From positions 1 to 49,570 of the forward strand of contig JAFSIW010000078.1 in NCBI GenBank assembly GCA_017439545.1: DNA of 49,570 bases. The letters are read 5' to 3'. Below the pieces are notes generated by a model. It did no database searches, had not been told where the DNA came from, and saw nothing but the letters and a program-made list of their open reading frames with translations. Positions 3,306 through 47,266 of this stretch are shown one piece after another (the stretch's first letter is position 1; each line of letters begins with the position of its first letter). The translations under genes and the position numbers were made by a program. The DNA is from Clostridia bacterium (GTDB taxonomy: Bacteria > Bacillota > Clostridia > Oscillospirales > Acutalibacteraceae).

Positions 3306-3334
3306 GAAACAAACACAAAATAAGAGGAATGTTT

Positions 3335-4582: not shown

Positions 4583-4587
4583 AAAGA

Positions 4588-4632
4588 AAAAATGTGTCTT
4601 GCAAGCAACCGGGACTTGCAAAGCACATTTTT
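4588..4632. terminator. bidirectional terminator after hflX
   Basis: AAAAATGTG and TTGCAAG (4588-4605) pair with CTTGCAA and CACATTTTT (4615-4632). A T-rich run follows on both strands, so it can end hflX and the convergent dockerin operon. Confidence 0.85.
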
Positions 4633-4652
4633 CTTTTATTCAGATGGAAAAA

Positions 4653-5504: not shown

Positions 5505-5535
5505 AGTAAAATCCTCCTTCATCGATTGGTGAAAG

Positions 5536-13127: not shown

Positions 13128-13150
13128 ATTGATCACTCCTTGTTGCAGAA

Positions 13151-13906
13151 TCACTGTTCATAGAGATATATTTTCCAGCATTCGGGATTTTCTCTTCGAG
13201 AACCTAATCCTAAGTGAAACACATTCAAACGAATGGTATCATATTCAGACTGAAGCTTGTTGATCTCGGTGATAAAAAACAAATTGGGAGTCACATCGCC
13301 CGCCAAGCAAGAGGTCACGTCCACCATTTGCACCTGCAAGACTCGGTCAGCCACCCAAACAAACTCCACCTCGACGGGTGAATTCAGACGATAACGGTTG
13401 GCAGCTAAAACAAACAGGCTTTTATTCTCAAAATAGTCCTGCGCGTATTTGTCAAATTGGGAGGTCTCATTCCAAACTTCCAGCTCCTGCAAAGCCAGAT
13501 ATTGCTCATAAGTATCAATCACTTGTACCTGTTCATACGTATTAGAAACCTTTTTGGTATACTCCCATGCGTAAGTGGGTGTCGCAATCGTCACGTCCTC
13601 TTTCACGCGCAAAAAGGCAGTGCGCTTTCCCACCACGTATTGCAAAATATGCAGGGCATCATCGGCAGACGGGGCTTCTGCGGCGACAATCACCTGTGCA
13701 AGCTCAGCCTGTAAGTCGGTGAGCTGTGTTTTGCCTACCACGGAACGTAAAATCAGCAAAGCATCGTCGGCAGATACTTTACCGTCACCGTTCGGGTCAC
13801 CGTACATAGGTGACGGTAGTTCCTGCGCCACAGCAGGCCTCATTTGGGTTACCGTTGGCAGTAACAACAGCAAAATGCTTAACATAGAAGCTAAAACTTT
13901 TTTCAT
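13151..13906 (-). CDS. secreted protein with N-terminal dockerin
   Basis: 251 residues and first gene of the pair. The signal peptide MKKVLASMLSILLLLLPTV and the first dockerin loop are nearly identical to the next gene. The second repeat (APSADDALHILQYVVGK) has lost most calcium ligands. Residues ~115-230 contain one copy of the shared domain (TYEQYLALQ...DYFENKSLFVLAANRY...VEVEFVWVADRVLQVQMVDV). No catalytic motif is evident. A good Shine-Dalgarno (AAAGGAGAG) precedes the ATG. I see no convincing promoter in 13907-14040. The pair interrupts the usual khpA-rimM-trmD neighbourhood. Confidence 0.8.
   Translation of the reverse strand: MKKVLASMLSILLLLLPTVTQMRPAVAQELPSPMYGDPNGDGKVSADDALLILRSVVGKTQLTDLQAELAQVIVAAEAPSADDALHILQYVVGKRTAFLRVKEDVTIATPTYAWEYTKKVSNTYEQVQVIDTYEQYLALQELEVWNETSQFDKYAQDYFENKSLFVLAANRYRLNSPVEVEFVWVADRVLQVQMVDVTSCLAGDVTPNLFFITEINKLQSEYDTIRLNVFHLGLGSRRENPECWKIYLYEQ
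13755..13886 (-). repeat. duplicated signal peptide-dockerin DNA, copy 2
   Basis: Partner of the repeat at 12976-13106. The differences between copies are scattered single bases, mostly silent or conservative. Confidence 0.85.
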
Positions 13907-18223: not shown

Positions 18224-18239
18224 TCAAACAAACAAGTAA

Positions 18240-18270
18240 GGCAGAGTTTCGTTAGAAACTCTGCCTTTTC
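18240..18270 (+). terminator. terminator after the nitroreductase gene
   Basis: GGCAGAGTTTC (18240-18250) pairs perfectly with GAAACTCTGCC (18255-18265), then TTTT. Confidence 0.85.
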
Positions 18271-18332: not shown

Positions 18333-21300
18333 CTAATTTTTGTTGCAATAATCCAAAATCTGATTATGGCGTTTCAAGGAAGCCAGTTCTTGATCCAGAT
18401 AGGCTTCAGGGAAGCTGTAACCGCCAGTTGCCAGATCGGCAATAGGATTTTTCGCCGCTTCTTCGGGAACGGAGGTTGCCCAAGCCTTGCCTTCTTCGGT
18501 GGACAGCATTTCCTTGAATTTTTGTTGCAAGAACTGCAATTCCTTATATTGAGTAGAAGTCACGTACAGATCGCAAGCATAGTCCATCCACATAGTGCCG
18601 GGAATCCCGCCTGCTTCGTAAATGGCTTTGCACCAAGTAAACAAGGAACTCATCGTGTTGACTTGGCAACCCATCACGTAACTGTCTAAGCACAACTTAT
18701 CGGAATATTCGTATTTGCCCACGCTGTCGTTAATAACAGCCAAATCCATCATATGAGCAAAGGGCGGCGTTTTGGCCGTGTTGAATCCATATTTGGCGGC
18801 TTGACGAGTCAATTCATATACTTCGGAATTAAAGAACGGTGTGCAACAATAACTGCTATCGCCATAAATAATGCCGGAAGCTTTCAACAGCTCGGGTATC
18901 GCAGCGCCACGTCGTTGTTCGTAATACACGTGACGGTAGCGGGGATTGGTGGTGGTTTGAGAAATACCGGGAGCCAAAAACAAAGCATTTTCCGTACGCA
19001 AATAAACCTTGGCATTGTCAATGTCAGCATATTTCAGCATTTCTTTGTAATTGTCCACCCGTTGGGAGGTGCGGAACAGATCGTATTCCACCGATGCGGC
19101 AGTCCAGTCGTAGTATACCTCACCATTTAACGTACTGCCCAAGGATTCATCCGTAACCGAGATTTTTTCAAAGCTATCATACGAAGCGGAATACCGTTGG
19201 TTAAGCGCGGAAATATCATCCTCATAGGCAATCTTCAGCCATTGTTGCAGTGCTTTATCCGAAGAGGCATTGATGTGGTCCCGCCAGTTATTGGCATAGG
19301 TCATCCAGCCGTAGTTTTCTTCCACCGAAATGGGGATCTCTTTGGTTACTTTATCGTACACGTAGAAATCGCCGTAGCGAAGCAGATTCCACCGCGCCAA
19401 AATACCGTTGGCGGCATCCACATTTTTCTGCCCGGCAAAATCAACACGTCCACCCAGATCCAAGTTGGGATCAGATGCTCTTACCCGTGCCGCCGCAAGT
19501 CCATTGCGGTAGGGATATAGCGCGTGCCCTTCATAAGCGAATCCAAGTTTTCGGGCAAAGTCCAACATATACATGGTCATGTCGTAAGTGCCTACGTAAT
19601 CTCCCGTATAGGCTTGCGTTGTCGTAAGAGTATTGATTCCTGCCTCTTTGATGTTGAGGATTTCATTGAGAATAATGTCGTTGCAATAAGGACCACGGTC
19701 AATATTCCCTCGCATATCGGTCATATTCTGGGTCATGACCATAGGCTCGCGGGTACCGTCTTCTTTGATCACGTAATTCTTGTTGTAAGGATTCAAGGTA
19801 ATTTGAATAGAATCCGTTTCCACTTGAAGCGGCAAGCAAACCCGAGCCATTTCGTTTTTGTCGCCGTGCAATACCTTGAGCACAATTTCATTGGTCCAAG
19901 GAGCAGGTTGCACATACATCGTCCCCTTGGTGGCGGTAGAACCCACCTCATAAAGGGTGGTGAAAGAAGACATAAATTCTTCGTAATCCTTCAGCCAACC
20001 ATTACGTTCGGGTGCGTTGGGGTTTTCGTTGACCATCGCCTGCGGGGTAGTTACCTCCCCTGTTTCATTGGCAGTAAATTCAAAGGTAGCACTGGTCACT
20101 GCGCGGCTACCGATTAAATTTTCCTCATACAAATACCGTTCGTGTTCACTACGCATCATACCGTAAATCACAATGCGATATTCACCCGGCTCAAAGCCGT
20201 GACTGCCTGCATAACCTTTGGCGGCATTAAACAGCACCCAGAATTCTCCGTTTTCACCGGGGTACACGTAGTCAAGCAACGGATAGTACCAGTTGGGGTT
20301 GTCGCTGTAATAGGTCCATTCTCCATCAATTTTTTTGTAGAGTTTGGGAGCAAAGCGGAAGGTACTGTTGCCTTCCCCGTCCAAAATGGTACTGCCGGTA
20401 TTCTTATAAGAGAATTTAAACCAGGTGTAGGTAGAGCCGCTTTGAATATTGCCGGACTTTTTAATCTCGGTGGTATCAAAGGCAGGATAAGCCACCCCCT
20501 GCACATCCTTGGCGGGATCGGCATTCAGTTTCGGGTGATCGTTGTTATCATAGCCATTCACATAGCCTTCGTAAGAAAGTTCCACCGCGATGGGACCCGG
20601 CATATTCAAATCATAGTAGGGAGTTGTTTCCGAGGCGTAGCGATCGGCATCTTCAAAGGCGTTTGCCTGCAAATGCACCACTTCTCCCTCATTAGAGGTC
20701 ACCGAATAGGTCACGGGAATCATATCGTAGGCGGTGGCGTTTTCGGGAATGGAGTATTCCACTTTAGTGCCGCCCAGATTCAAAGTGCCGCTAACCTTTT
20801 TGGCGGAGTTGTATTTCGATAGTTCTCCCAATCGTTTGGCTTCGTTAGACAGCGGCGTATAAACCAATTTTTCGTCTACGGTTTTATAGGTTTCTACGTC
20901 GCCGGTTTCGGGCGTACCGCCCAGTTTATCTACAAGTTCTTGGGGTGTCATATCGTCGCTGATTGCGACAGGCTCCTCAAAATCTGAATAGTCTACTTTA
21001 TACTGTTGGTCCAAATTGTAATAGAAGCGTTCTTCTTCAGTCATAGAATTGACCAATTGCGCAGTGAAAATCTTAATTTTTCCCACCACGAATTTCAAAA
21101 TATCCAAGGCGTCGGAAGCGTTGGTTTGTCTGTCGGCATCTACATCCCCTGCCTCTGTTTGTTGTTGCGTGGGAGTTACCTTGCCAACGGTGATTTGCAA
21201 AACCACCAAAGCGTCGGCAGCCGAAACGGTTTCATCACCGTCCACGTCGCCGTACATTACTGTTTGAGCCATGGGAACAATGGTACAAACAGCCATCAAC

Positions 21301-21347
21301 ATCGTCACGGTCAACAACCATGCGATTCCTTTCAAAACTCTTTTCAT
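18333..21347 (-). CDS. secreted dockerin protein with glycosidase-like barrel
   Basis: 1004 residues. Signal peptide (~1-28), then an N-terminal type I dockerin with two full loops (GDVDGDETVSAADALVVLQI, GDVDADRQTNASDALDILKF). Next come ~350 residues of beta-rich sequence and a large C-terminal part that looks like a TIM-barrel glycoside hydrolase of clan GH-A type. ISVEENYGWMTY resembles the acid/base strand; KVYLRTENALFLAPG could carry the nucleophile. WLKIAYEDDISALNQRYSAS echoes the LKEKYG-ALN-WGT helix of GH42-like enzymes. GTMWMDYACDLYVTSTQYKELQF closes the barrel. I cannot assign a CAZy family. It is about half identical by eye to the next gene, and the same residues are kept. It has its own promoter; AAAGGA precedes ATG. 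Confidence 0.75.
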   Translation of the reverse strand: MKRVLKGIAWLLTVTMLMAVCTIVPMAQTVMYGDVDGDETVSAADALVVLQITVGKVTPTQQQTEAGDVDADRQTNASDALDILKFVVGKIKIFTAQLVNSMTEEERFYYNLDQQYKVDYSDFEEPVAISDDMTPQELVDKLGGTPETGDVETYKTVDEKLVYTPLSNEAKRLGELSKYNSAKKVSGTLNLGGTKVEYSIPENATAYDMIPVTYSVTSNEGEVVHLQANAFEDADRYASETTPYYDLNMPGPIAVELSYEGYVNGYDNNDHPKLNADPAKDVQGVAYPAFDTTEIKKSGNIQSGSTYTWFKFSYKNTGSTILDGEGNSTFRFAPKLYKKIDGEWTYYSDNPNWYYPLLDYVYPGENGEFWVLFNAAKGYAGSHGFEPGEYRIVIYGMMRSEHERYLYEENLIGSRAVTSATFEFTANETGEVTTPQAMVNENPNAPERNGWLKDYEEFMSSFTTLYEVGSTATKGTMYVQPAPWTNEIVLKVLHGDKNEMARVCLPLQVETDSIQITLNPYNKNYVIKEDGTREPMVMTQNMTDMRGNIDRGPYCNDIILNEILNIKEAGINTLTTTQAYTGDYVGTYDMTMYMLDFARKLGFAYEGHALYPYRNGLAAARVRASDPNLDLGGRVDFAGQKNVDAANGILARWNLLRYGDFYVYDKVTKEIPISVEENYGWMTYANNWRDHINASSDKALQQWLKIAYEDDISALNQRYSASYDSFEKISVTDESLGSTLNGEVYYDWTAASVEYDLFRTSQRVDNYKEMLKYADIDNAKVYLRTENALFLAPGISQTTTNPRYRHVYYEQRRGAAIPELLKASGIIYGDSSYCCTPFFNSEVYELTRQAAKYGFNTAKTPPFAHMMDLAVINDSVGKYEYSDKLCLDSYVMGCQVNTMSSLFTWCKAIYEAGGIPGTMWMDYACDLYVTSTQYKELQFLQQKFKEMLSTEEGKAWATSVPEEAAKNPIADLATGGYSFPEAYLDQELASLKRHNQILDYCNKN

Positions 21348-21373
21348 GTATTCACGTCCTTTCGTTTGCTGGG

Positions 21374-21402
21374 ATTATAGCGTATTGTCATTACAATTAC
21401 AA
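21374..21402 (-). promoter_or_regulatory. promoter of the 1004-residue gene
   Basis: TTGTAA (21402-21397), 17 bases, TATAAT (21379-21374) on the minus strand, 27 bases before the ATG. Confidence 0.7.
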
Positions 21403-21445
21403 CACAAAATCCTAATAATATGGACAATTTACAGACAAAATTATA

Positions 21446-21488
21446 CGCATCGAACTTTGGACAGAAGATTCTGCTAAAGTCCGATGCG
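21446..21488 (-). terminator. hairpin between the two barrel paralogues
   Basis: CGCATCG-AACTTT (21446-21458) pairs with AAAGT-CCGATGCG (21476-21488). The U run on the minus strand is weak (ATAATTTTG), so termination may be partial. Confidence 0.6.
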
Positions 21489-21525
21489 TGGATTCACACA
21501 GGGGACTGTATCCCCTCGTATTCAG

Positions 21526-24500
21526 TTAATTGCAAAAATCCATAATGATATTTTTGCGGGGCAGATTGGCAATGCAATCCTTGATATAAGCAGGATTGAA
21601 GCTATACGCATCTGCTACGTAAACACCGCTCAGAGGATCGGTTTGTTCGGCTTCGGGAATGTTGGTCGCCCAAGCCTTGCCCTCTTCGGTAGACAGCATT
21701 TCTTGCACCTTTTGGTTAAAGAATTGCAGTTCCTTATATTGGATTGCGGTTACGTACAAGTCGCAAGCATAGTCTTGCCACATGGTACCGGGAACACCGC
21801 CTGCCTCGTAAATCGCCTTGAACCAAGTGAACAGAGAGGCGTTCCGTCCGATAGCACAGGATTTTTGATAATCGGTAGTATTGTATTTTTCAGACACGTC
21901 GAAAGTGCCAACATAAGGATTGACGACAATATCAGTCAAGTGGTTAAAGCTGGGGGTCTTGGCGGTATTAAAGCCACCCTTTGCCGCTTGACGGGTCAAT
22001 TCGTAAACTTCAGAATCGGCAAGGGGCAGGAAACTATAACTGCTGTCACCGTAAATGATATCGGAAGCAGCCAGAATTTCGGGCACCGATGCAGATTTGC
22101 GTTGTTCGTAGAATATCTGACGGTAGTGAGAATTCTTGGTGGTGGGTTTGATACCGGGGGCTAAGAAAATGCCGTTTTCGCTACGCAGATAAACCTTAGC
22201 ACCTTCCACGTTTACATATTTCAGGAATTCCTTGTAATAACGAGTACGTTCCGAGGTGCGGAACAAGTCCAATTCGTTGGTGGCGGCGTTCCATGTAGGA
22301 CCGTAAACGTCTCCATTAAGTACCGTAGCAACCCCATCAGAGTAGCCTTGGTCAGATACCGTGATCTCATTAAAGTCGCCAAAAGAAGTACCGTAGGCCT
22401 TGTTCAACGCGTCGATATCGTCATCGTAACCGTCCTGCAACCACTTGTACAGCAAACGGTCGCAATAGCTATTGTCAATGCCGTAACGGTTGTTCAAGTT
22501 ATAGGTCATCCAGCCGAAGTTTTCTTCGATGGAAATAGGAACTTCTTTGGTTACGGGGTTGTAATAATAGAACTGACCGTAACGAATCAAATTCCAACGG
22601 GCCAAAATACCGTTGGCGGCATCTTGCTGTTGCATATTGAACATATCGCGACCGCTGCCCAAGGCAACCGTACGATCGGACGCCCGCACACGAGCCGTGG
22701 CATTTTGACCGCGGTAATAGTACAGGGCGTGACCTTCCAGCGTGAAGTTCATAGCACGGGCGCAGTCCAACATATACATACTCATATCGTACAAGCCGGT
22801 GAAATCGCCGGTGTAGGCATGGGTAGTGGTAATGGTATTGACCCCGGCTTCTTTCATATTGCGCAGTTCATTGAGAATGATCTCACCGCAATTAGGGCCA
22901 CGGTCAATATGACCGCGCATATCCGCCATATTCTGGGTCATCACCATCGGCGTGCGAGTACCGTCCTCTTTCACCACCCAATTGGTATTATAGGGATTGA
23001 GGGTCAGAGAAATGGAATCACTCTCTACGTTAATGGGAATACGAATGCCGTTGGCTTCACTTGAGTTGCCGTTGATGACCTTCAACACGATGGCGTCGGT
23101 CCAAGGGGCAACCTGCACGTACATGGTACCGGTGCGAGTGCCCACGTTCAGGAAGGAAGAGTAAGAAGACAAGAATTCTTCAAAATTACCCAGCCAATTG
23201 TTACGGGTGAATTGACCGTTTGCGGCGGTGGAAGTGTTTTTCACCGCATTGGGTGTAGTAACCCCGCCCGCAGCAGTAGCGGAAAAATCGAAAGTCGCAG
23301 TTGTTACCACTTTACCCGCCACTTGCATGGTGGGGAAATCAAAGTTATTTTGCTCATTGCGCAGGCAACCGTTAATTACAATACGGTAATCCCCTTCGCT
23401 TAAACCAAACTCGTTGGGACCGGTGTAGAACAGGCACCAGAAATCACCGCTCTCGCCGGGATACACATAGTCCAATAAGGGATAGTACTGGTTGGGAGTT
23501 CCGCCCACAGTGGTATAGGAGTTGCCGCTCTTCTTTTGCAATACCGCAGAGAAACGGAAGGTGCTGTTCCCTTCACCATCCAAAATGGTATTACCGGTGT
23601 TGGTGAATTTAAATTTGAACCAGGTATAATCGGCACCGGTCTTAACGGTACCGCTCTTTGAAAGCTGCGTAGTATCAAAAGCGGGATAACGAGACCCCTG
23701 AATATCCTTACTCGGATCTTTAGAAAGCATAGGCGCACCGCTACCGACGTTACCGTTTACATAGCCCTCGTAAGACAGGTCCATTTTGACAATACCGGGC
23801 AGGTTATTATCCATATAAACCGATGAAGGGGTTTGATAACGGGTCGCATCTTCAAAGGCGGTGGCTTCAAAATGCACCGGCAGATTTTTGGTGTTGGTAT
23901 TGACCGAATAGGTAATGGGCACTGCATCATAGGCCGTGGCGTTTTTGGGCACGGTATAAGTAATGGAAGTAGAGCCCGCCTGAATTACACCGGTGGTAAC
24001 GGGAATGTTGTTATATTTGGTCAGTTTGCCCGACCGTTTTGCCTCATTGGAAATAGGGGTGTAAGACAAGCGATTATCAGGTGTCATGCCCCATTCGTCC
24101 ACGTTGGCACTTTGGATATCGCCACCCATAGCTTCGAGAATCTCATAGGCGTCTTCACTATCAGAAATCTCAATGATTTCATTTTCAAAGTCAGAGTAAT
24201 TGACCTTGTACTGTTGATCCAACGCGTAATAGTATTGTTCTTCTGCGCTCATTGTGTTCACCACCTCGGCGGGGAATTTGTCAATCTTCCCTACTACGTA
24301 TTGCAGAATCATCAAAGCGTCGGCGGCGTCGACTTTTGTGCTCACGTCAACGTCACCGGCGGCAATTTGCTCATCATTCAAAGAAACCTTGCCCACCACC
24401 GATTTTAACACGGTCAGGGCATCGGAAGCGGTAACTTCCTTGTCACCGTCCAAGTCACCGTAGGTGACGGCGGCAGAAGCCGCCGGCACCACGGGAAACA

Positions 24501-24549
24501 TACTTACCAATAATGTAAGAATCAATAAAACTAATACAGAACGTTTCAT
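21526..24549 (-). CDS. secreted dockerin protein with glycosidase-like barrel, paralogue
   Basis: 1007 residues, same architecture as the downstream gene: signal peptide, N-terminal dockerin (GDLDGDKEVTASDALTVLKS, GDVDVSTKVDAADALMILQY), beta-rich middle, glycosidase-like barrel. Candidate catalytic segments are kept: ISIEENFGWMTY and KVYLRSENGIFLAPG, as are ILARWNLIRYG, IIYGDSSY and GTMWQDYACDLYVTAIQYKELQF. Retention of both Glu-bearing strands in divergent copies supports enzymatic function rather than binding only. It starts 13 bases after the CBM-dockerin gene ends, so it belongs to that operon. ATG 24549 is preferred to GTG 24558, although GGGTGAT is a modest ribosome site. Confidence 0.75.
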   Translation of the reverse strand: MKRSVLVLLILTLLVSMFPVVPAASAAVTYGDLDGDKEVTASDALTVLKSVVGKVSLNDEQIAAGDVDVSTKVDAADALMILQYVVGKIDKFPAEVVNTMSAEEQYYYALDQQYKVNYSDFENEIIEISDSEDAYEILEAMGGDIQSANVDEWGMTPDNRLSYTPISNEAKRSGKLTKYNNIPVTTGVIQAGSTSITYTVPKNATAYDAVPITYSVNTNTKNLPVHFEATAFEDATRYQTPSSVYMDNNLPGIVKMDLSYEGYVNGNVGSGAPMLSKDPSKDIQGSRYPAFDTTQLSKSGTVKTGADYTWFKFKFTNTGNTILDGEGNSTFRFSAVLQKKSGNSYTTVGGTPNQYYPLLDYVYPGESGDFWCLFYTGPNEFGLSEGDYRIVINGCLRNEQNNFDFPTMQVAGKVVTTATFDFSATAAGGVTTPNAVKNTSTAANGQFTRNNWLGNFEEFLSSYSSFLNVGTRTGTMYVQVAPWTDAIVLKVINGNSSEANGIRIPINVESDSISLTLNPYNTNWVVKEDGTRTPMVMTQNMADMRGHIDRGPNCGEIILNELRNMKEAGVNTITTTHAYTGDFTGLYDMSMYMLDCARAMNFTLEGHALYYYRGQNATARVRASDRTVALGSGRDMFNMQQQDAANGILARWNLIRYGQFYYYNPVTKEVPISIEENFGWMTYNLNNRYGIDNSYCDRLLYKWLQDGYDDDIDALNKAYGTSFGDFNEITVSDQGYSDGVATVLNGDVYGPTWNAATNELDLFRTSERTRYYKEFLKYVNVEGAKVYLRSENGIFLAPGIKPTTKNSHYRQIFYEQRKSASVPEILAASDIIYGDSSYSFLPLADSEVYELTRQAAKGGFNTAKTPSFNHLTDIVVNPYVGTFDVSEKYNTTDYQKSCAIGRNASLFTWFKAIYEAGGVPGTMWQDYACDLYVTAIQYKELQFFNQKVQEMLSTEEGKAWATNIPEAEQTDPLSGVYVADAYSFNPAYIKDCIANLPRKNIIMDFCN

Positions 24550-24562
24550 AGATATCACCCGA

Positions 24563-27500
24563 TTATTGTTCTACGGGGAACTTATCGATTTTACCAACCA
24601 CTTTTTTGAGGATGTTCAGCGCATCGGTGGCATCAACTTCGCCGTTGCCATCGGTATCGGCCAAAACAAGTTGTTCGTCGGTTAAGGTAACCTTACCAAC
24701 AACCGCTTTCAGTACCTCCAGAGCGTCGGTAGCTTCTACCTTGCCATTGCCGTCTACGTCACCGATAACGCCTTCTACCGGCATGGGCGCAGCTTCCAGT
24801 GCGGCAAGCACGGCATCCAGATGTTGTACTATTTCATCGGTAATATAGGCGCGTTGATCTTCGTTAAGCAGAGCCAGAGCTTCTTTTGCTTTTTGAGCTT
24901 TTCTGTCCAGAGCCTTGTCATACACTTCAATGGATTCGGCAGCGGGCAGTTTTTCGATGGTTTCGATCACTTCAAGATAGTTCATAAATTCGGGATAATC
25001 ATCAAAGAACTTTTCACCGTAACCAACATAGTTATAAGACCATTCAGCGCCCAGAGCGATCTGCATGGAAAGGGGATCCAATTCGCCGGTTGCAGCATCA
25101 TAAATGGGATCGTAGAATACGATGTTCAACTTGAAGCTTTCTTCCCCTTCTACACGAGGAACACGCATTTCAAAACCATAGGTGTTACCGGTGTTGAAAC
25201 CAACAAAGTTGGAAGGATCGGTCAAAAATTGATTTTTGGCATTCAAGCAACCGGCAGGAACAGTACCGTCGGCCATCATATAGAAGTTAAACAAACCGTC
25301 AGTGGGGAACTCAACATCCTGATAAGGTTTGCCGGAAACGATATTCATCGGATCGGGATCAATATAGGCGAAGAGTGAATCAAATTTCATGGCACTGCCG
25401 GTGTTCCATTCCACTTCATCAGGCATGAACACAATGCCGTTGTCATCAAATACCTCAAAGTAGATGTAGAAATAGTTCTCATCTGCCGCAGTTTGAATTA
25501 CACCGTAGGAATCGGTGGGGGTCAGATATATATCGGATTGAGAGGAGAACAAATACCCTTGTTCAATAGACCATGCGTCATCTCGTTCATAGGAAGGATC
25601 CTTTTTGCCGTCGATCTTTACAGCAAAGCACAGAGCATCGACTCGTTTAGCGACGGTATTGAATCTTGCCATTTTCTCGGGGTTGATATAGGAGACTAAA
25701 CCTCCCAAATTGGCGATCAGTTCACGAATTTCTTCTACTGCTTCCAAATCGTCCAGGTCCGCGTCGTCAGGCAAAGCATCGATCTTGGCTTCAATGGCAA
25801 TAAGTTCTTCACCGCGCACAGCTGCTTCCAATTCATCCATCTTGGCTCTGCAAGCAAGATAGCGCTCATACAAGGCTTCGTCAATAAATACGAGCCAACT
25901 GTCGGGAACAGCATCAAGGGTAGCACCAACGCTTGTTACCAGATCATAATCGTTTTCATAAGTGAGAGTAGAAGCATCTTCGGGCAATTTAGCCAATTCT
26001 GCTTCAATAGCTTCGATCTGAGTGGGATCGGTCATAACGTCAGCATCGGTCATCATATCATCCGTCCAGTGACCGGCTAAGTTTTCGTAGTTGATGTTCT
26101 TATTGGGCAGCATATAGTAGTTGGTATCGTAAGAAACCGAGTAAGAGCCGTTCTCACGATAGGCAACGGGAGACAGTTGCAACCCAATAGCGCCTGCGGT
26201 CTTGGGCAGGACCACTTCGTATTGACGAACACCGTCGCCAACGTAAGAAGCGTATTTGATTTCGCGACCGTCTGCATCAGCAGCACCGGTCATATTACCG
26301 GTAGCGGTATCCCATTGCAGGTAACCGCCGCCTGCTTGTTGGAACATAAAACCGGCCGCGGCATTGGTATTGGTAATGTAGTAAAGAAGGTCAATACCTT
26401 GGGTCATAAAGGGGTCGTGAATTTCAAAGTATACGTAGTTGAAATTATCGTCCCAAGCATAATACAGTTTGGTATAGATGTGGTGACGGTTAATGATCCT
26501 ACCGCCACCGGAACCACCGTAGGCGGTAGAGATGGTGGTGCATTTTTCTTCGGTATAGCGTTCGTCTTTAATGGCGTCCAGACCGTCTTCCGAAGGAGTG
26601 GGAGGAGGTACAACGGGTTCATCGGGAGGAGTGGGTTCCTCGCCGCCTTCGGGAACAAAGTTTTGTACCCAGGTGGATTCATCGGCATATTTTACGGCAA
26701 CCATGCTGGTGGTGTTGATATCCTTGCCGCTGGAAATAACGTTGCTGTTGGTCTTCATGGAGCAAACGTTGAAATGGAAACCGGTTGCAGCGGCGTCACG
26801 GGTGAATTTCAATTCGTATTTACGTACGCCGGTTTCGGCAACGTGTTTGTACAGTTCGATCACACCGTCCTTGGTCAAAGCACCGCCGAGCACGTTTTGC
26901 AGGTAAGCACCGCCGGATTGTTGGAAGATGAAGCCGCCGGTGGGCTCATTCAAATTGTTTTTCAGGTAGATGGCATCAATATAAGCTGCGCCGTTGGGGT
27001 CGGCAATTTCAACGTACATATAGTTGTAATTGTCATCCCAAGCAAACCAAGCGTTGGCTTTCAAGCCATCGGTATTGTCGATGGCGTTACCGTGATCACC
27101 GGTAAACATGGTGCTGATGGTGACTTTTTTGGTGTCAGCATAGCGTTCGTCTTTTACGCAGTCGATGGAAGTATCTTCTTCGGCAACTTTTTCTAATTTT
27201 TGTTCATACCAAGTGGATTCATTATTGAACACAACTTGTTTAGCACCGGCATTTTGACCAAAGGCACCGGTATAGCACACGCCATAGGCACCGTTGGTGG
27301 CGGCAGGGCTGATGCGGAAACCGCCGGTAGCATTGGCACCCAGCGCATACCGCAATTCGTAAGAACGGTTATTGGATCCTGCTGCACGGTTTACCTTGTA
27401 TTCAGCAGGAACGACAGCACCGCCGGAACCAGCCGTGCCGTCAGCATTAAACTGAATGTAACCGCCGTTGGGATCTTGGAAAATAAAGCCGGCGTTTTGC

Positions 27501-27823
27501 TCGGTGTTATTTACAAAATAGACATAGTCAGGACCGGTGGTAGCACTGGGGTCGGTAACGTCTACAAATACGTAGACATCGGTGGCATCCCAAGTATAGT
27601 ACACCTTCATGACCATACCGTCGGTGTTGGTTTTGGCAGCACCACTACCGCCTGCATCATAAGCGGTGGTGATCTCCAACATTTTCGCGTCGGTATAAAC
27701 GTCATCCTTTACACCGTCAACGGTGGGAGCAGTTTCGGCCGAAACTGCAAAGGGCAGAACGGTCAGGCAAGAGATTGCCATAACAACGGTCAAAACCCAA
27801 GCGAGTAAGCGTTTAGTTTTCAT
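24563..27823 (-). CDS. secreted four-module CBM9-like protein with C-terminal dockerin
   Basis: 1086 residues. After a signal peptide (~1-28) come three related beta-sandwich modules, each opening D.VKD..Y....K...I.T. and containing YYAWD..F.YVYFEI.DP (starts near 33, 215 and 412). A Pro-rich linker (~395-412) precedes the third. A helical stretch with heptad-like acidic repeats (~610-740) is followed by a fourth divergent module (VKIDGKKDPSYERDDAW..., NYFYIYFEVFDDNG), another helical segment and a canonical dockerin (GDVDGNGKVEATDALEVLKA, ADTDGNGEVDATDALNILKK). The modules resemble CBM9/DOMON-type carbohydrate-binding folds; no catalytic motif is visible. Probably a substrate-binding or scaffolding partner for the two barrel proteins in the same operon. 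GGAGG precedes the ATG. Confidence 0.8.
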   Translation of the reverse strand: MKTKRLLAWVLTVVMAISCLTVLPFAVSAETAPTVDGVKDDVYTDAKMLEITTAYDAGGSGAAKTNTDGMVMKVYYTWDATDVYVFVDVTDPSATTGPDYVYFVNNTEQNAGFIFQDPNGGYIQFNADGTAGSGGAVVPAEYKVNRAAGSNNRSYELRYALGANATGGFRISPAATNGAYGVCYTGAFGQNAGAKQVVFNNESTWYEQKLEKVAEEDTSIDCVKDERYADTKKVTISTMFTGDHGNAIDNTDGLKANAWFAWDDNYNYMYVEIADPNGAAYIDAIYLKNNLNEPTGGFIFQQSGGAYLQNVLGGALTKDGVIELYKHVAETGVRKYELKFTRDAAATGFHFNVCSMKTNSNVISSGKDINTTSMVAVKYADESTWVQNFVPEGGEEPTPPDEPVVPPPTPSEDGLDAIKDERYTEEKCTTISTAYGGSGGGRIINRHHIYTKLYYAWDDNFNYVYFEIHDPFMTQGIDLLYYITNTNAAAGFMFQQAGGGYLQWDTATGNMTGAADADGREIKYASYVGDGVRQYEVVLPKTAGAIGLQLSPVAYRENGSYSVSYDTNYYMLPNKNINYENLAGHWTDDMMTDADVMTDPTQIEAIEAELAKLPEDASTLTYENDYDLVTSVGATLDAVPDSWLVFIDEALYERYLACRAKMDELEAAVRGEELIAIEAKIDALPDDADLDDLEAVEEIRELIANLGGLVSYINPEKMARFNTVAKRVDALCFAVKIDGKKDPSYERDDAWSIEQGYLFSSQSDIYLTPTDSYGVIQTAADENYFYIYFEVFDDNGIVFMPDEVEWNTGSAMKFDSLFAYIDPDPMNIVSGKPYQDVEFPTDGLFNFYMMADGTVPAGCLNAKNQFLTDPSNFVGFNTGNTYGFEMRVPRVEGEESFKLNIVFYDPIYDAATGELDPLSMQIALGAEWSYNYVGYGEKFFDDYPEFMNYLEVIETIEKLPAAESIEVYDKALDRKAQKAKEALALLNEDQRAYITDEIVQHLDAVLAALEAAPMPVEGVIGDVDGNGKVEATDALEVLKAVVGKVTLTDEQLVLADTDGNGEVDATDALNILKKVVGKIDKFPVEQ

Positions 27824-27882
27824 GATTTTTCCTCCAATGTAATAGATTTATAAACAGACCTTGCGGTCAATGTTCCAATGGG

Positions 27883-29583
27883 TTAATAGGTAACGGTATG
27901 TTCGCCTTTACCGCTGACCACAACCAAGGCGTAGTCTAATCCGCCGATGGTCTTTTTGGTAACAGCCACCTCGTTACCGTCTACCTGCACCTTGTCAACA
28001 CAGGCGGGAAGCTTGACAACCATGGGGCTATCCCCTGCCAAAGTAACGGTAGCGCCTTGTTTGTTTGCGGTCAGGGTAGCCGCATCCCGTTCCATCCACC
28101 ACAGGCAAAGTTCGTCGGTGCCCGCGTTATATACCTGCCATCCCTTGGCGGCGCAATGATTGAGAATGGTATCAAAGGCACGCAAGGTCATAGTGGAATC
28201 GTACCCGCTATAAAAGGCCACGTAATGAGGATGAGAGAACAGGTTGATGGTTTGCCCATAATAGCCTGCATTGTCAGCGCACAGGTGAAGTTTTTCGCCG
28301 TCTTCACCGTATTGACCACCGATGCGAGGCTCATAATAGGTCATGGGAATGCCCACAAAGTTCAGACGTTCACTGCCGTGATCGGCATCGTCATAAACAA
28401 AATGGGGGAAGGCTGTACCAAAGCCGTAATCGTAGATGTTAAAGGCGTTGATATCGGCAAGATTCAGCGTGCCTTGCCGTCCTCCATCCCCTTTTACACC
28501 AAGAGCGGCTTGCCAGCGGGCGTATTCTGCATAGCCCACGTTGGCCAGACAGTGTGCCACGTTGCTGATGGGCAACTGAGGATAAGTTGCCATATACGTG
28601 CCCATTTGTTGCCGGAAGGATTCTTCCGTGAAGGGCACGCCGGTCATATTGTAGTGAAGCGCCAGTTCATGACCGCGGGCAATGATTTTTTCAAAGCCTT
28701 CTTTGTCTACGGTGTAATCCCCGTTTTCACTGCCGGGCATCAGATTGATGTGATACGGCAATCCTTTGGCAAACATAATTTGGGAAGCCCGCTCATCCAA
28801 CTCGGCAGAGGTATTATCATCGTCACCGCCGTAGAAGAACAGCAGATCGGCGGGGGTTACCCCATCTTTCATCACCGGCAACACGTGAAGCATAGGAAGT
28901 TTGCGGCTGTAAAGCAGATTTTCAAGCATCAGCAAATACAAGTCAGCCAGCGGTTGGGAGGAGTCGCATTCATAAGAAAGAGCGCGACCGTCAGGCACTC
29001 GTCCCACAGGGAAATAGTTGGACGGGCCTTCGGGCACCGGCTTGCCTTGAATGATCTTCAGCACCACGTAAGGCAGGTCAAAGGGAACGTAATAGGTATT
29101 CTCCCCTGCTACCAGACCGGGCAACAGTTGGTCACCCACTTGAACGGTGGCTTGCACTTTGCCCCCTTCGGTTACCAACACATCGGCCATCACAGGCAAT
29201 GCCACGTTCTTATTGGCAGGCAACACACTGTGAGGAGCGGTAAAGGTACCCACCGTTTCATACAAATCGGTTTGGGTCACTTTGCCCTTGACGGTGCAAC
29301 CGAACAACGCTTCGGCGCCTTTGGTGGCAAAGCCGATAACCAACGTTCCCTTGGCAGAGGCGGCTTGCAGGGCGCTGACCACTTCGGGAGAGAGGGTTTC
29401 GGCACCCACCAGCACCACGTCGTCTGCCTCAAAGGGGGTGGCGGACACTTGACTTACCGCCAATTTTTGTGCAGGCAGACCCAAACGGGAAGCAATTTCT
29501 TCCAAATACAAAGCGGAATACACACCGGTTTGAGCCGATTGGGCCGCCGCCTTCAATTCATTTTGCAAATAATAAACGGTCAT
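27883..29583 (-). CDS. polysaccharide deacetylase-like protein, function unknown
   Basis: 566 residues and no signal peptide, unlike its dockerin neighbours, so probably cytoplasmic. The N-terminal ~130 residues resemble a class I amidotransferase-like flavodoxin fold (DDVVLVGAETLSPEVVSAL, TLVIGFATKGAEALFG) without a catalytic Cys. The middle looks like a NodB/deacetylase barrel: FFYGGDDDN is similar to motif 1 (Asp-Asp) and HELALHYN to the metal-binding His motif, with FSHPHYVAFYSG further on. The C-terminal ~80 residues are beta-rich. Related architecture occurs in bacterial glycosidase-associated unknowns. The ATG lies one base after the stop codon of the upstream oxidoreductase, so the genes are coupled. 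Activity on a sugar or glycan is inferred only. Confidence 0.6.
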   Translation of the reverse strand: MTVYYLQNELKAAAQSAQTGVYSALYLEEIASRLGLPAQKLAVSQVSATPFEADDVVLVGAETLSPEVVSALQAASAKGTLVIGFATKGAEALFGCTVKGKVTQTDLYETVGTFTAPHSVLPANKNVALPVMADVLVTEGGKVQATVQVGDQLLPGLVAGENTYYVPFDLPYVVLKIIQGKPVPEGPSNYFPVGRVPDGRALSYECDSSQPLADLYLLMLENLLYSRKLPMLHVLPVMKDGVTPADLLFFYGGDDDNTSAELDERASQIMFAKGLPYHINLMPGSENGDYTVDKEGFEKIIARGHELALHYNMTGVPFTEESFRQQMGTYMATYPQLPISNVAHCLANVGYAEYARWQAALGVKGDGGRQGTLNLADINAFNIYDYGFGTAFPHFVYDDADHGSERLNFVGIPMTYYEPRIGGQYGEDGEKLHLCADNAGYYGQTINLFSHPHYVAFYSGYDSTMTLRAFDTILNHCAAKGWQVYNAGTDELCLWWMERDAATLTANKQGATVTLAGDSPMVVKLPACVDKVQVDGNEVAVTKKTIGGLDYALVVVSGKGEHTVTY

Positions 29584-29584
29584 T

Positions 29585-30757
29585 TTATTTCTTGCCTCGA
29601 TTCCGGAAATCAGGTACTTCTAACAAAGTACCACCCATTTCGCAAGACTGTGCCGCCAAAATTGCGGGAGCGGCGGTTTCTACTGCTTTGTAAACATCCA
29701 TAGGAGGCGTTTTATCATTGAGAATGGCATCCACAAAATAGTGAATGGGATAATAGTCGGTACCGCCGTGAGCCGCTTTTTGGATGAAATCGGGAGCATC
29801 GGGGTCATGACAGGTCCACTCCTGGGCAGTCCACTCTTTGGTTTCAGCATCATACATTTTGGGGGTATCGATGGTGGAACGAGCCCATTCCACCGATTTT
29901 TTGGTGCCTTTCAGTTGATACCAGTGAGCGCCGGTCTGGGCTTTGGAGCCGTAAGGAGAGGAATAACCGGTACGGACCGAGAAAACGGTATCGTTATCGT
30001 TATACATAATAGCGTTTTGAATATCGCGGGAATTAAGACCGGGGGTGCCGTAGCTCAAGGGTTGCACACCCATGCAAGAAACCTTGGTGATGCGGCCGCC
30101 GGTTACCGAAAGCAGCGGGCTCAAGGTGTGGGGCAAATAGAAAATGGGGTTGCGCCACAGCCAGTTGCGCCAAGAGTGACGGTATTCGGGATTGGCAAAA
30201 TAAGTAGTGTCAGAGGTAACCACGGTGTGACCGGTCTTGCGGTTAACGAAGTTGTCCCAAGCGGGTTCGTAGTGGAGGTATTCCCCATCGGCAAAGATGA
30301 TGTGACCCAACTCCCCTGCTTCGGCCATGGCTTTCCAATCCTGAATGAATTTCCAATAGCGGGTCTGTTCGGCCAACTGATATTTACAACCGGTAGCTTC
30401 TACGGCATCCACCAATTTTTCGCATTGTTCAATAGAGAATGCGGCAGGTACTTCGGTCATAACGTGCAGACCCTTATGCATGGCATCTACCGCGATATCC
30501 ACCTGCACGTCGGGATCGCAGGTAATGAGCACGGCATCCAGCTTTTCTTTTTTGACCATTTCTTCGTAAGAGGTGTAGGAACGAAGAGTTTGACCGCAGA
30601 TGCTTTGATAGATACCCACAAAGTGTTCGGCTTTGCCCATTGCGGTATCACAGCAAGCCACGATCTCCAGATCGGGATGCATATAATAACAGGTCATAAG
30701 AGCGTGACAGCGGGAACTGGTGCCCACCAGACCCATACGTACTTTTTTGTTTGCCAT
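29585..30757 (-). CDS. Gfo/Idh/MocA family oxidoreductase
   Basis: 390-residue NAD(P)-dependent sugar-type oxidoreductase. The N-terminal Rossmann fold (VRMGLVGTSSRCHALMTCYY, then LDAVLITCDPDVQVDIAVDA) is followed by the family C-terminal alpha/beta domain (GGRITKVSCMG, HWYQLKGTKKSVEWARS). The usual EKP, whose Lys is catalytic in many members, reads EVP (MTEVPAAFSIEQC), and the upstream paralogue has QVP, so chemistry may differ or rely on another residue. AAGGTGG precedes the ATG. Part of the minus-strand carbohydrate operon, directly before the deacetylase-like gene. The substrate is unknown. Confidence 0.85.
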   Translation of the reverse strand: MANKKVRMGLVGTSSRCHALMTCYYMHPDLEIVACCDTAMGKAEHFVGIYQSICGQTLRSYTSYEEMVKKEKLDAVLITCDPDVQVDIAVDAMHKGLHVMTEVPAAFSIEQCEKLVDAVEATGCKYQLAEQTRYWKFIQDWKAMAEAGELGHIIFADGEYLHYEPAWDNFVNRKTGHTVVTSDTTYFANPEYRHSWRNWLWRNPIFYLPHTLSPLLSVTGGRITKVSCMGVQPLSYGTPGLNSRDIQNAIMYNDNDTVFSVRTGYSSPYGSKAQTGAHWYQLKGTKKSVEWARSTIDTPKMYDAETKEWTAQEWTCHDPDAPDFIQKAAHGGTDYYPIHYFVDAILNDKTPPMDVYKAVETAAPAILAAQSCEMGGTLLEVPDFRNRGKK

Positions 30758-30796
30758 AATAATCAGCCACCTTTTAAAAGTGAATAAAGTATATTG

Positions 30797-31948
30797 TTAC
30801 CGAAAACTCGGAACTTCGATGAGTTTACCGCCCTGCTCGCTGGACTGAGCCGCCGCAATGGCGGGAGCCGCCAGTTCTACACAGGCGAGGGCATCCATAC
30901 GAGGCTTGATTCCTTTTTGAATGCCGTCTAAAAATGCCAGAATGGGGAACAGATCCACCCCACCGTGACCGCTTTCTTGTACCAGCGGATCATCGCTTTT
31001 GGGGGGCACGCCCCAATTCTCTGCCGTCCATTCTTTGGTGGCGGCGTCAAATCGTTTGGGAGTGTCGATCTCACTACGGGCCCATTCCACCGTGGCTTTG
31101 GTACCTTTGAGCTGATACCAATGGGCTCCCGTGCCCGCTTTAAAGCCGTGGGGAGTGGTAAATCCCGTTTTGACCACGAACACGGTGTCCTTATCGTTGT
31201 ACATCACGGCGGTTTCCAGATCCCGCACCATAAATCCTTCGGAAGAATAACTTTCCGGCTTGGTGCCAAAGCAAGAAACCTTGGTAATGCGACCACCGGT
31301 GACGGTCAGCAAAGGATTCAGCGTATGGGGCAAATACAGAATGGGGTGTTTGAACACCCGATGCCGCCAACTTTCCCGATACCCTTCTTCTTTACCAAGA
31401 GAGGCATCGTCGGTTATGATGGGCTTGCCGCTGTTTTCATCCACAAACCAATCCCATTTTGGTTCGTAGTGTAAATATTCACCCTCAGCGAAAATGATAT
31501 GTCCCAGTTCACCCTGCGCCATCAGCTTGCGCCATTCTTCCACAAACTGCCAGCAATGGGCTTGCTCGGCACCCACGAACACCACGCCGCTTTCTCGCGC
31601 AGCATCCATCAAAGCGTGACAATCTTCCATAGTCACTGCAACGGGTACCTGACACAGCACGTGCTTACCCCGTTTCATTTCTGAAACCGCCAGTTTGGGT
31701 TGGGTCTCGGGACTAAGGGCGATCATAACACCATCGTACTTGCCTTTCTTAGTCAGTTCGTCATAAGAGGAAAAGGCAGCAACCTCTTGCCCTGTTTGTT
31801 TTACAAAGGTTTGGCAGGCGTTTTGCAACACGTCGGCAGAGTGATCGCAAATAGCCACCAGATCGGCGCGACCTGTTTTTTGCAGATTCAGCGCCATGGA
31901 AAGGCCCATGGGTCCTGCCCCGATGAGAGCAATCTTTAACGGCTTCAT
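30797..31948 (-). CDS. Gfo/Idh/MocA family oxidoreductase, paralogue
   Basis: 383 residues, clearly homologous to the next gene throughout (EGEYLHYEPKWDWFV versus DGEYLHYEPAWDNFV; GAHWYQLKGTK in both). The Rossmann motif IALIGAGPMGLSMAL is intact. EKP is replaced by QVP (LCQVPVAVTMEDC). Two such enzymes in a row may act as a pair, for example oxidising and then reducing a sugar intermediate as in oxidoreductase-assisted glycoside cleavage; this is inference. First gene of the minus operon, with GAGGAGGGG before ATG, facing the AraC regulator. Confidence 0.85.
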   Translation of the reverse strand: MKPLKIALIGAGPMGLSMALNLQKTGRADLVAICDHSADVLQNACQTFVKQTGQEVAAFSSYDELTKKGKYDGVMIALSPETQPKLAVSEMKRGKHVLCQVPVAVTMEDCHALMDAARESGVVFVGAEQAHCWQFVEEWRKLMAQGELGHIIFAEGEYLHYEPKWDWFVDENSGKPIITDDASLGKEEGYRESWRHRVFKHPILYLPHTLNPLLTVTGGRITKVSCFGTKPESYSSEGFMVRDLETAVMYNDKDTVFVVKTGFTTPHGFKAGTGAHWYQLKGTKATVEWARSEIDTPKRFDAATKEWTAENWGVPPKSDDPLVQESGHGGVDLFPILAFLDGIQKGIKPRMDALACVELAAPAIAAAQSSEQGGKLIEVPSFR

Positions 31949-32080
31949 ACCTACCCCTCCTCATCCTTGTAGTTTTCGATTCCATTATAGCAAATAACCT
32001 TTCGTTTGTATTTATGAAATCATACAACAAATTTGTAAAATTATATAAAATCTTCTCATTCTTTGATGTTAATTATTTGT

Positions 32081-32105
32081 AAAAACCCCATAAAACGGGG
32101 TTTTT
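32081..32105. terminator. symmetric hairpin in the araC/oxidoreductase intergenic region
   Basis: AAAAACCCC (32081-32089) pairs with GGGGTTTTT (32097-32105) over a 7-base loop, with A and T tracts giving terminator form on both strands. It stands between two divergent genes, where a terminator is not needed; it may insulate them or be a leader element. The promoter of the minus operon could not be fixed. Confidence 0.6.
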
Positions 32106-32179
32106 GGCTGATTTCATTTAAGAAATCTTCTCTTATGGTCGTTTTATCATATCAAATCGATTTTTTCTTCATTTTTATC

Positions 32180-32208
32180 TTGTAATCGGATAAAATATTT
32201 GATAAACT
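32180..32208 (+). promoter_or_regulatory. promoter of the araC-type regulator
   Basis: TTGTAA (32180-32185), 17 bases, TAAACT (32203-32208), about 30 bases before the ATG. Moderate match. Confidence 0.5.
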
Positions 32209-32238
32209 ATGGTTATCAATCTATGGGAGGAATTACAA

Positions 32239-33141
32239 ATGGAATGGCAATACAACCCGATTTCTTGCTCCAAGGTAGTTGACATTACCGCTTTGGTTGC
32301 GGTGTATGATATCGATCTTCCCAAGAACTTCACCTTTACGCCGGAGCACCATCGTTGTTGGGAATTGAATTTTCACGATTACGGTGAAACACGTTTGTAT
32401 GCCGACGGCAAGGAATTTGCTCTTTCTAAGCACGATATGATTCTATATGCCCCCATGGTGGAGCACGGAATTACCGAGCAGACCGAAGATGCTTCCAACA
32501 CCGTTTCGGTATCGTTTGAAAGTGACAGTCCCCTATTATATCGATTGGCAAATCGAGTGATTCGCGTGCCCGGTGAACTACAAAAAACCTTGAGTTCTCT
32601 GTTAAAGCTTGCCACCTTTTTTACCGAGCAGGGATTGCAACCCAACCTTCTTACTCAGCCCTTCAACAGCACCGATCTGACCGAGCAGGAACAGATTGTT
32701 TTGCAACGAATGAAAGGTCTGCTTGAGGACTTCTTTTTACGCCTCCTCTTTGCCGACCAACAAGTATCGCAGTCCCAGCAAATGCCTAAGCTTACCGCTG
32801 AAAACCGACAAAAGAATCTTTCAAAATCGGTACAAGAATACATCGAATTGAATTTGGATAAAAAGCTGACCTTACAAAATATCGGCAATCATTTTAATGT
32901 AAGCGTCAGCAAGCTGTGTCGGGATATTAAAACCACTACCGGCTGTAGTTTGCAAGAGCTGATCGCCAACAAACGGCTGAAAGTGGCCAAACAAATGATT
33001 CTTCGGGAAGAGTATAACTTTACCGAAATTTCTGAGCGATTGGGATTTTCTTCTCTGCACTATTTCTCTCAATGGTTCAAAAAGATGACCAATCGTTCTC
33101 CTACCGAATACGCCACCTCGGTTAAGGGACGAAGTGAATAA
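32239..33141 (+). CDS. AraC family transcriptional regulator
   Basis: 300 residues. The N-terminal cupin-like sensor domain (HHRCWELNFHDYGETRLYADG, LSKHDMILYAPMVEHGI) precedes a C-terminal AraC/XylS DNA-binding domain with two helix-turn-helices: LTLQNIGNHFNVSVSKLCRD and FTEISERLGFSSLHYFSQWF. Regulators of this type usually activate carbohydrate genes when a sugar binds the cupin. The divergent position next to the Gfo/Idh operon makes that operon the likely target. ATG 32239 follows GGGAGG; an in-frame ATG at 32209 falls at the promoter and is rejected. Confidence 0.9.
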   Translation: MEWQYNPISCSKVVDITALVAVYDIDLPKNFTFTPEHHRCWELNFHDYGETRLYADGKEFALSKHDMILYAPMVEHGITEQTEDASNTVSVSFESDSPLLYRLANRVIRVPGELQKTLSSLLKLATFFTEQGLQPNLLTQPFNSTDLTEQEQIVLQRMKGLLEDFFLRLLFADQQVSQSQQMPKLTAENRQKNLSKSVQEYIELNLDKKLTLQNIGNHFNVSVSKLCRDIKTTTGCSLQELIANKRLKVAKQMILREEYNFTEISERLGFSSLHYFSQWFKKMTNRSPTEYATSVKGRSE

Positions 33142-33149
33142 AATGTTTT

Positions 33150-33177
33150 GAGCACAGGAAACCCTGTGCTCCTTTTT
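33150..33177 (+). terminator. terminator after the araC-type gene
   Basis: GAGCACAGG (33150-33158) with CCTGTGCTC (33163-33171), then a T run. Confidence 0.9.
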
Positions 33178-43894: not shown

Positions 43895-44058
43895 GACCGA
43901 AGGCGGAGGGAACTCTGGAGAAGCCCGTTTTACACGGGTGCCGAAGGTGCAAGGCAGATTCTGCCGAATCTCTCAGGCGAAAGGACAGAGAAACGTTACG
44001 TTCGAATGAACTGTTCTCCAGAGCTGTCTTTCTACGGGAAGGCAGTTTATTTTATTTT
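43895..44058 (+). ncRNA. glycine riboswitch with terminator platform
   Basis: A single gcvT-type aptamer. It shows the conserved core GGAGGGAACTCTGGAGAAGC (from 43905), GTGCCGAAGGTGCAAGGC and GAATCTCTCAGGCGAAAGG; P1 pairs CTCTG (43913-43917) with CAGAG (43986-43990). Downstream, CTGTCTTTC (44024-44032) and GGAAGGCAG (44037-44045) make a 9-bp hairpin before TTTATTTTATTTT, an intrinsic terminator. The aptamer's GAAAGGACAG (43979-43988) can pair with CTGTCTTTC instead, and CTCTGGAGA (43913-43921) with TCTCCAGAG (44015-44023). These predict that glycine-bound aptamer frees the terminator, an OFF switch, fitting control of an importer. The logic is inferred. Confidence 0.93.
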
Positions 44059-47258: not shown

Positions 47259-47266
47259 TTTTTCTT

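Follow-up and report, generated by a model that had tools for sequence, protein, structure and literature searches.

The window analysed here is a 49,570-nucleotide stretch of DNA from a Clostridia bacterium of the family Acutalibacteraceae, a relative of Clostridia of animal guts (assembly GCA_017439545.1, contig JAFSIW010000078.1); it is contig 50 of the 85 contigs that make up a 1.88-Mb assembly, hereafter genome G000. Positions 18333 to 33141 of the window hold a gene for an AraC-type regulator and, in divergent orientation, a unit coding for two Gfo/Idh proteins (GfoA and GfoB), a deacetylase-like protein (DAC), a CBM9-like multi-module dockerin protein and two dockerin barrel proteins (DocB and DocA). 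I propose that this locus and a second operon together make up a small AraC regulon that serves to degrade a particular glycan, perhaps an acylated, amino-sugar-containing one, by means of redox glycosidases and deacylation, and I put the probability of this proposal at about one half. The evidence obtained by computation comprises the gene order and its conservation, a promoter element common to the two operons, GH109-type residues in the Gfo proteins, and the predicted folds of DAC and of the barrel proteins. Drawn from sequences and structural models, it supports oxidation-assisted glycan breakdown as the candidate function.

Organization of the locus

The seven open reading frames (ORFs) lie at the positions given by a first-pass annotation of this DNA, and their strands and spacing agree with its description of one directional gene set with a divergent AraC gene. 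The minus-strand unit reads gfoA, gfoB, DAC, CBM9-dockerin, docB, docA, with gaps of 39, 1, 59, 4 and 178 bp. The regulator is encoded on the plus strand by an ORF at 32209-33141, in which the ATG at 32239 is preferred over 32209 as the start, an RBS-like (ribosome-binding-site-like) GGGAGGA sitting ahead of it; the likely gene is therefore 32239..33141. Pfam families above their cut-offs are HTH_18 in AraC (7.1e-18), GFO_IDH_MocA in both Gfo proteins, Dockerin_1 in all three large proteins, and CBM9_1 in the multi-module protein, while no NCBIfam family attains its cut-off among the matches listed (for GfoA and AraC, the best 25 of 33). Judged by eye, the three large proteins have hydrophobic signal-like N-termini and the other four do not. 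The 178-bp gap ahead of docA contains a promoter-like site, so that this gene may be partly independent of the unit; such matches are common (38 found versus 22 in shuffled sequences).

GH109-type residues in the Gfo/Idh pair

GfoA (30797..31948) and GfoB (29585..30757) are 47% identical to each other, both contain the Gfo/Idh NAD-binding fold (PF01408 above cut-off), and for both the nearest solved sequences are GH109 enzymes. Sixteen Gfo/Idh proteins were compared: 11 from Gfo/DAC cassettes, one that lies beside barrel genes in the genome UBA8921 (locus L028), and four others encoded by G000. In each of the 11 cassette proteins the lysine of the EKP motif is replaced by valine (QVP in GfoA; E102, V103, P104 in GfoB), and E130, Y160, H162, H210 and H330-G-G (GfoB numbering) are retained. 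The five non-cassette proteins all have EKP and none has the GH109-type set, H210 being common to four of them. In the loop around the histidine that is catalytic in GH109, the His and the GG that follows it are found in 11 of 11 cassette proteins, and the preceding GG differs (SGHGG in GfoA, AAHGG in GfoB). The HGG loop and the absence of the EKP lysine make it less likely that the pair are ordinary sugar dehydrogenases.

A profile of eight cassette Gfo proteins was searched against the PDB. Among the 60 sequences listed, only that of the GH109 enzyme 2ixa has a best stretch spanning the whole chain (3-384, E 1.5e-26); the best stretches of all the others end by position 178. A second GH109 enzyme, 6t2b, covers the HGG loop in a further, individually weak stretch (325-384, i-Evalue 0.15). 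H330, Y160 and H210 of GfoB align with 2ixa, and H330 and Y160 also with 6t2b, H210 lying outside the stretches aligned to the latter. According to PMC10755693, His404 of the GGHGG loop of AmGH109A acts in oxidation and reduction at C3, Tyr226 at C2 and His259 on the leaving group; structural conservation in GH188 extends to two of the three residues. These roles may be carried over to GfoB by a constant offset, the 6t2b sequence position plus 25 giving 404 and 226. The first-pass annotation had suggested oxidation-assisted glycoside breakdown; the mechanism gains from the GH109-type residues, which are what an oxidation-elimination mechanism predicts, and a common glycan for the secreted and cytoplasmic proteins is conjectural. 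The two Gfo proteins of another genome, G021, are 78% identical to each other and look like a separate duplication.

A promoter element shared with a second operon

The predicted AraC operator of the gfoA promoter, two half-sites 21 bp apart, lies together with the extended -10 box TGCTATAAT at 31984..32037 on the minus strand. The block upstream of gfoA has the form [CT][AG][CT]AAA[TG]-N14-[CT][AG][CT]AAA[TG]-N20-TATA[AC]T in G000 and in two other genomes of the genus, G395 (a sister species) and G397, and ends 32-35 nt ahead of the start codon. The same joint element precedes p669, a gene for a 669-residue protein (P669), in these three species. All six promoters examined thus contain it, and 1000 dinucleotide-shuffled versions of each yielded no match. 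Because the expression was composed with the sites in view, the shuffles overstate its rarity, but its placement before orthologous genes is independent of that. All six promoters contain direct repeats 21 bp apart near the -10 box; AraC proteins typically have sites spaced in this way, with about 21 bp between repeats.

When the 35-nt pattern of two half-sites was searched in G000 with up to three mismatches, two matches were obtained, one at gfoA (no mismatch) and one at position 49323 of contig C71 (one mismatch), and the reversed control gave none. The second half-site plus the -10 box, with up to two mismatches, matched 10 times in five genomes of the genus (reversed control, 0); six of these matches are the gfoA and p669 promoters of G000, G395 and G397. 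By BLAST, the other four (two in G396, and one each on contigs C21 and C76 of G395) precede no cassette gene, and the one on C21 adjoins another AraC-type gene. When the intergenic regions were tested for any 21-bp repeat whatever, the best score was equalled in 38 of 500 shuffles for the region in the window and in 131 of 500 for that in G395, which is not significant, the best pair in these two not being the site itself; for G397 none of 500 shuffles reached the best score. The rarity of the element comes from the half-sites taken jointly with the -10 spacing.

The C71 element precedes p669, which is followed by genes for an M20-type deacylase and a CBM9_2 protein (L097, 1042-11397). The P669-M20 order is retained in G000, G395 and G397, the CBM9_2 gene being matched only in G000, and the element stands before both gfoA and p669 in all three of the genus genomes that have both. 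G394 and G396 have no P669 and no close GfoA. The connection extends beyond the genus: in another family of the class, a P669 homologue lies between the DAC and Gfo genes of G472 (55% identity) and another adjoins DAC in G435 (57%), a link that was not used in finding the C71 site. P669 has weak propeller-like matches, among them 'Cake' entries, which I take to be designed propellers, and by eye no signal peptide. Upstream of it, C71 carries a DeoR/amidohydrolase/FGGY kinase/SIS/TIM/UPF0047 cluster, and portions of this cluster are neighbours of P669 in G395 and G397 as well.

The AraC protein of the window is presumably the one that binds this element, which offers a handle for defining the regulon and its inducer. 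The first-pass annotation had called the locus complete; since a second operon has the same predicted operator, the unit is not complete by itself.

The deacetylase-like protein

DAC (27883..29583, minus strand; 566 amino acids) matches no NCBIfam family, nor any Pfam family at E 0.1 or better; its deacetylase nature is taken from its structural model. The model comprises a GATase-like region (1-228), a CE4-like barrel (about 243-502) and C-terminal strands from 503 on, that is, the three-domain layout of the Agd3 and PelA de-N-acetylases (an alpha/beta/alpha domain, a CE4-like barrel and C-terminal strands); the three-domain architecture of CE18 is thus present. An Asp-Asp base/metal motif, D254 D255, occurs in all nine aligned rows that cover it, and an Arg and a late His are also conserved in the alignment. 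Together with the lack of a signal peptide, the model agrees with the earlier description of DAC as a deacetylase-like cytoplasmic protein.

Conservation within and outside the genus

In G395 the genes run AraC, then divergently GfoA, GfoB, DAC and CBM9-dockerin, followed by the start of a dockerin-barrel gene at the contig end; its AraC relative is 53% identical and occupies the identical divergent position. As the gene order is kept in this sister species, it is not due to chance. In G397 the genes for GfoA and GfoB are followed by DAC, which is cut off after its start by the end of the contig, and contig L021 of the metagenome-assembled genome (MAG) RGIG7216 contains the end of DAC followed by CBM9, barrel and barrel genes, its CBM9 protein being 69% identical; matching ORF coordinates suggest that G397 and RGIG7216 are one MAG.

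DAC relatives turned up in two of 393 further genomes from the order, in four of 390 from the class and in none of 397 from the phylum, the genome draws overlapping in part and the class and phylum searches using a profile at E 1e-15. Of the six DAC loci outside the genus, four (L051, L052, L092 and L094) have a cassette-type Gfo gene within two genes, and another, L093, ends with its contig. The layouts of the core are AraC divergent from Gfo, Gfo, EamA, DAC (L051); AraC divergent from Gfo, EamA, DAC (L052); Gfo, EamA, DAC plus AraC (L092); and DAC, P669, Gfo, SBP_5/permeases (L094). AraC-type genes thus adjoin three of these loci (L051, L052 and L092). EamA (PF00892 above cut-off) stands between Gfo and DAC in the same three, and Opp-type transport genes flank L094 and L091. 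The minus-strand unit of the window, as had been noticed, contains no transporter gene; since a transporter beside the core is common in its relatives, this absence is a true difference. The EamA relative was found in none of the five genus genomes, a weak negative in that the search had no positive control.

The secreted dockerin proteins

The CBM9-like protein (24563..27823, minus strand; 1086 amino acids) matches CBM9_1 in two stretches (4.2e-08) and ends in a dockerin (Dockerin_1, 1.4e-09). DocB (21526..24558, minus strand; 1010 amino acids) consists of an N-terminal dockerin, beta domains and a glycosidase-type TIM barrel, and by alignment DocA (18333..21347, minus strand; 1004 amino acids; Dockerin_1, 2.5e-08) is its paralogue, with 55% identity. 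The two Pfam families and the glycoside-hydrolase-type fold thus bear out the earlier account of one multi-module CBM9-like dockerin protein and two dockerin barrel proteins.

DocA and DocB match no catalytic Pfam family above cut-off; DocB reaches 17.6 of 21 bits for GH42 (PF02449) and DocA gives no GH42 match. DocB has 89 matches in G000, of which nine, including DocB and DocA themselves, are long and the remaining 80 are short and lie around the dockerin. Eight of the nine paralogues have a dockerin and five have GH42 at E 0.01 or better, but only one (C26, L012:9360-12353) passes the GH42 cut-off, with 29.8 versus 21 bits. A GH42 assignment of the window barrels was accordingly dropped, and they are classed as distant GH42-like proteins. 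In GH42 the acid/base Glu ends strand 4 and the nucleophile Glu is on strand 7. In the window barrels, an invariant E678 ends the barrel strand 673-678, and no invariant Glu is found on the likely strand 7, the model being weak at 872-905. Foldseek whole-chain matches of DocB have low TM-scores.

Barrel relatives at E 1e-40 or better occur in all five genus genomes (G000 included) and in none of 55 others among the 60 related genomes searched. Named genomes, when scanned, yielded 28 loci, of which 25 lie in Clostridia-type MAGs and three in MAGs of Phycisphaerae, Planctomycetes and Verrucomicrobia; the family is therefore not confined to the genus. L028 of UBA8921 (2-7488) has three barrel relatives around a gene for a 253-residue protein and an ordinary EKP-type Gfo/Idh gene. 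Within G000, C59 and C26 carry barrel pairs without an accompanying cassette, and C12 carries a single barrel (L013, 7804-10545) that has no dockerin or evident signal peptide; its match to DocB covers 155-997, and GH14 and GH42 fall just below cut-off in it.

Proposed pathway

In the pathway I propose, the secreted CBM9-dockerin and barrel-dockerin proteins, perhaps attached to a cellulosome, would capture the glycan and open it up on the surface of the cell, and an importer would carry in oligosaccharides or glycosides. Cytoplasmic GfoA and GfoB would then act as glycosidases that use bound NAD+: C3 would be oxidised transiently, the glycosidic bond broken by elimination, water added and the sugar reduced again, in the manner of GH109 and GH188. 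Acyl groups would be taken off by DAC and the M20 deacylase of the second operon, and the co-regulated, propeller-like P669 would serve some further step. A larger claim is offered only tentatively: GfoA/GfoB, DAC, P669 and M20 may form a new multi-protein oxidoreductive deglycosylation-deacylation pathway that recurs, its transporters being interchangeable, across several families of one class. In one genus a common AraC operator would have wired it to a dockerin surface module whose divergent GH42-like barrel has a new specificity, and P669 would represent a new eliminase or hydratase of propeller fold that has the oxidised sugar as its substrate.

If the proposal is correct, redox-assisted glycosidases are tied to dockerin-borne surface machinery, a combination that did not turn up in literature searches limited to openly available papers. 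DAC and P669, both without a Pfam family, and the divergent GH42-like barrel would also gain a common context.

Evidence against the proposal and alternative explanations

Several observations weigh against this scheme. The curated Pfam model of the GH109 C-terminal part (PF21252) is below cut-off for GfoA (14.6 of 27 bits) and gives no match for GfoB, so that the pair is best described, as far as sequence goes, as GH109-like rather than GH109, and the UBA8921 Gfo beside barrel genes is of the ordinary EKP type. In DAC, the second His of the HxxxH motif is absent from all nine rows covering it: H310 is kept, and the fourth residue beyond it is T, T, T, N, L, I, V, L and T. L091 has DAC with no Gfo within 19 kb, and no relative of the dockerin genes was recognised beside the Gfo/DAC core outside the genus. 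No importer was found, the genes scanned behind the C71 element including no recognised transporter; the co-regulated transporter that the first-pass annotation suggested looking for is thus not recognised in the second operon sharing the element. Lastly, pairs of CBM9-dockerin and barrel-dockerin genes terminate two other, unrelated gene rows of G000. One, on C85 (L009, 4294-16183), has the layout of the window locus, divergent AraC included, but a different cassette, made up of a NagK-like kinase, a SIS protein, two DegT aminotransferase-like proteins and a ceramidase-like protein. The other, on C34 (L010, 471-11478), runs from a glycyl radical enzyme, its activase, a GDSL hydrolase and a zinc alcohol dehydrogenase straight into the dockerin pair. 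This suggests that the CBM9/barrel surface module is reused with differing intracellular chemistry, which is the main reason for caution over a single substrate. A glycyl radical enzyme adjoining dockerin proteins looks unusual in itself.

It is accordingly conceivable, if rather unlikely, that the dockerin genes are functionally unconnected to the Gfo/DAC core and belong to a genus-specific CBM9/barrel module that has come to stand behind several promoters. Three differing cassettes precede such pairs in one genome (those of the window, C85 and C34), the core lacks recognised dockerin companions elsewhere, and the CBM9 protein of the window is 37% identical to the one in the syntenic place in G395, no closer than to its C85 and C34 paralogues (39 and 40%). 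For the last reason, CBM9 divergence between cassettes was also dropped as a sign of differing targets. What argues for a connection is that order and direction are kept in G395, and that the series DAC-CBM9-barrel-barrel, with the 69% identical CBM9 protein, is kept in L021 of RGIG7216.

A second alternative leaves the operon intact and changes its chemistry: GfoA and GfoB would be plain or coupled sugar dehydrogenases or reductases of GH109 ancestry, for instance making and re-reducing 3-keto sugars, with cleavage left to another protein such as P669. Split systems for oxidation, elimination and hydration that involve Gfo proteins are described in PMC10628242, the NAD-binding halves of GfoA and GfoB match the glycoside dehydrogenase DgpA, and P669 is retained alongside the cassette. 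DgpA, however, keeps EKP, whereas all 11 cassette proteins lack it and have the GH109 residues, and I regard this alternative as unlikely. That the core serves envelope or cell-wall amino-sugar recycling or modification and not a nutrient pathway, with the EamA proteins as exporters, would fit the resemblance of DAC to polysaccharide de-N-acetylases of exopolysaccharide systems (PMC7229062 and PMC13254593) and the EamA genes in three of six loci, but is very improbable: the portion of the neighbours scanned showed no recognisable gene for a glycosyltransferase or for polymer export, and the dockerin/CBM9 companions in the genus and the Opp-type genes at L094 and L091 point to uptake.

Relation to known systems

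Under the proposed scheme of redox glycosidases and deacylation, the closest known enzymes are those of GH109 (NagA, 2IXA; AmGH109A, 6T2B), with which GfoA and GfoB share the Gfo/Idh fold, the Val at the EKP Lys position in the alignments obtained, and a Tyr, a His and the HGG His that line up with those of 2ixa. They differ in keeping only the HGG of the GGHGG loop, in falling below the PF21252 cut-off and in occurring in tandem, without signal peptides, in an operon with a deacetylase-like protein. The GH188 sulfoquinovosidases (SqgA) resemble them in the oxidise-eliminate-hydrate-reduce chemistry proposed for a Gfo/Idh fold in PMC10755693, a likeness of description and not of compared sequences; unlike theirs, this locus has no recognised sulfo-sugar genes. 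DgpA/PuCGE and AtOGE also couple glycoside oxidation to bond elimination (PMC10628242), but employ separate eliminases.

For DAC, the nearest counterparts are Agd3 (CE18), PelA (CE21) and PelADA (CE26), as described in PMC7229062 and PMC13254593, which have its domain layout, DD motif, Arg and late His. DAC differs from them in lacking HxxxH and a signal peptide, and a profile search of the PDB gave no sequence match up to E 1; a plain CE4 assignment was dropped on the grounds of the unretained HxxxH and the missing PDB match. From GH42 and the neighbouring (beta/alpha)8 glycosidases (GH164, GH5, GH14) the barrels are set apart by about 6-13% identity among the structures listed (VIA-align), by the short matched stretch and by their score below cut-off.

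Other features of the window

A terminator-like inverted repeat with a 13-bp stem lies downstream of docA (18238..18267, listed on both strands), and a terminator-like stem lies beyond the AraC gene (33150..33171, plus strand); both are consensus matches only. Two further places in the window recall dockerin proteins. At 4653-7551 a subtilase (PF00082) lies beside a small protein whose dockerin-like C-terminus is just below cut-off (21.5 of 22.9 bits), and at 11394-13906 two adjacent proteins without a Pfam family have frames that match the dockerin-bearing N-terminal part of DocB. Farther along, a glycine riboswitch (43905-43998) precedes a sodium:alanine symporter gene (44073-45614), and a T-box leader (47018-47259, minus strand) lies ahead of a gene for a pyridoxal phosphate (PLP)-dependent enzyme (45681-46916).

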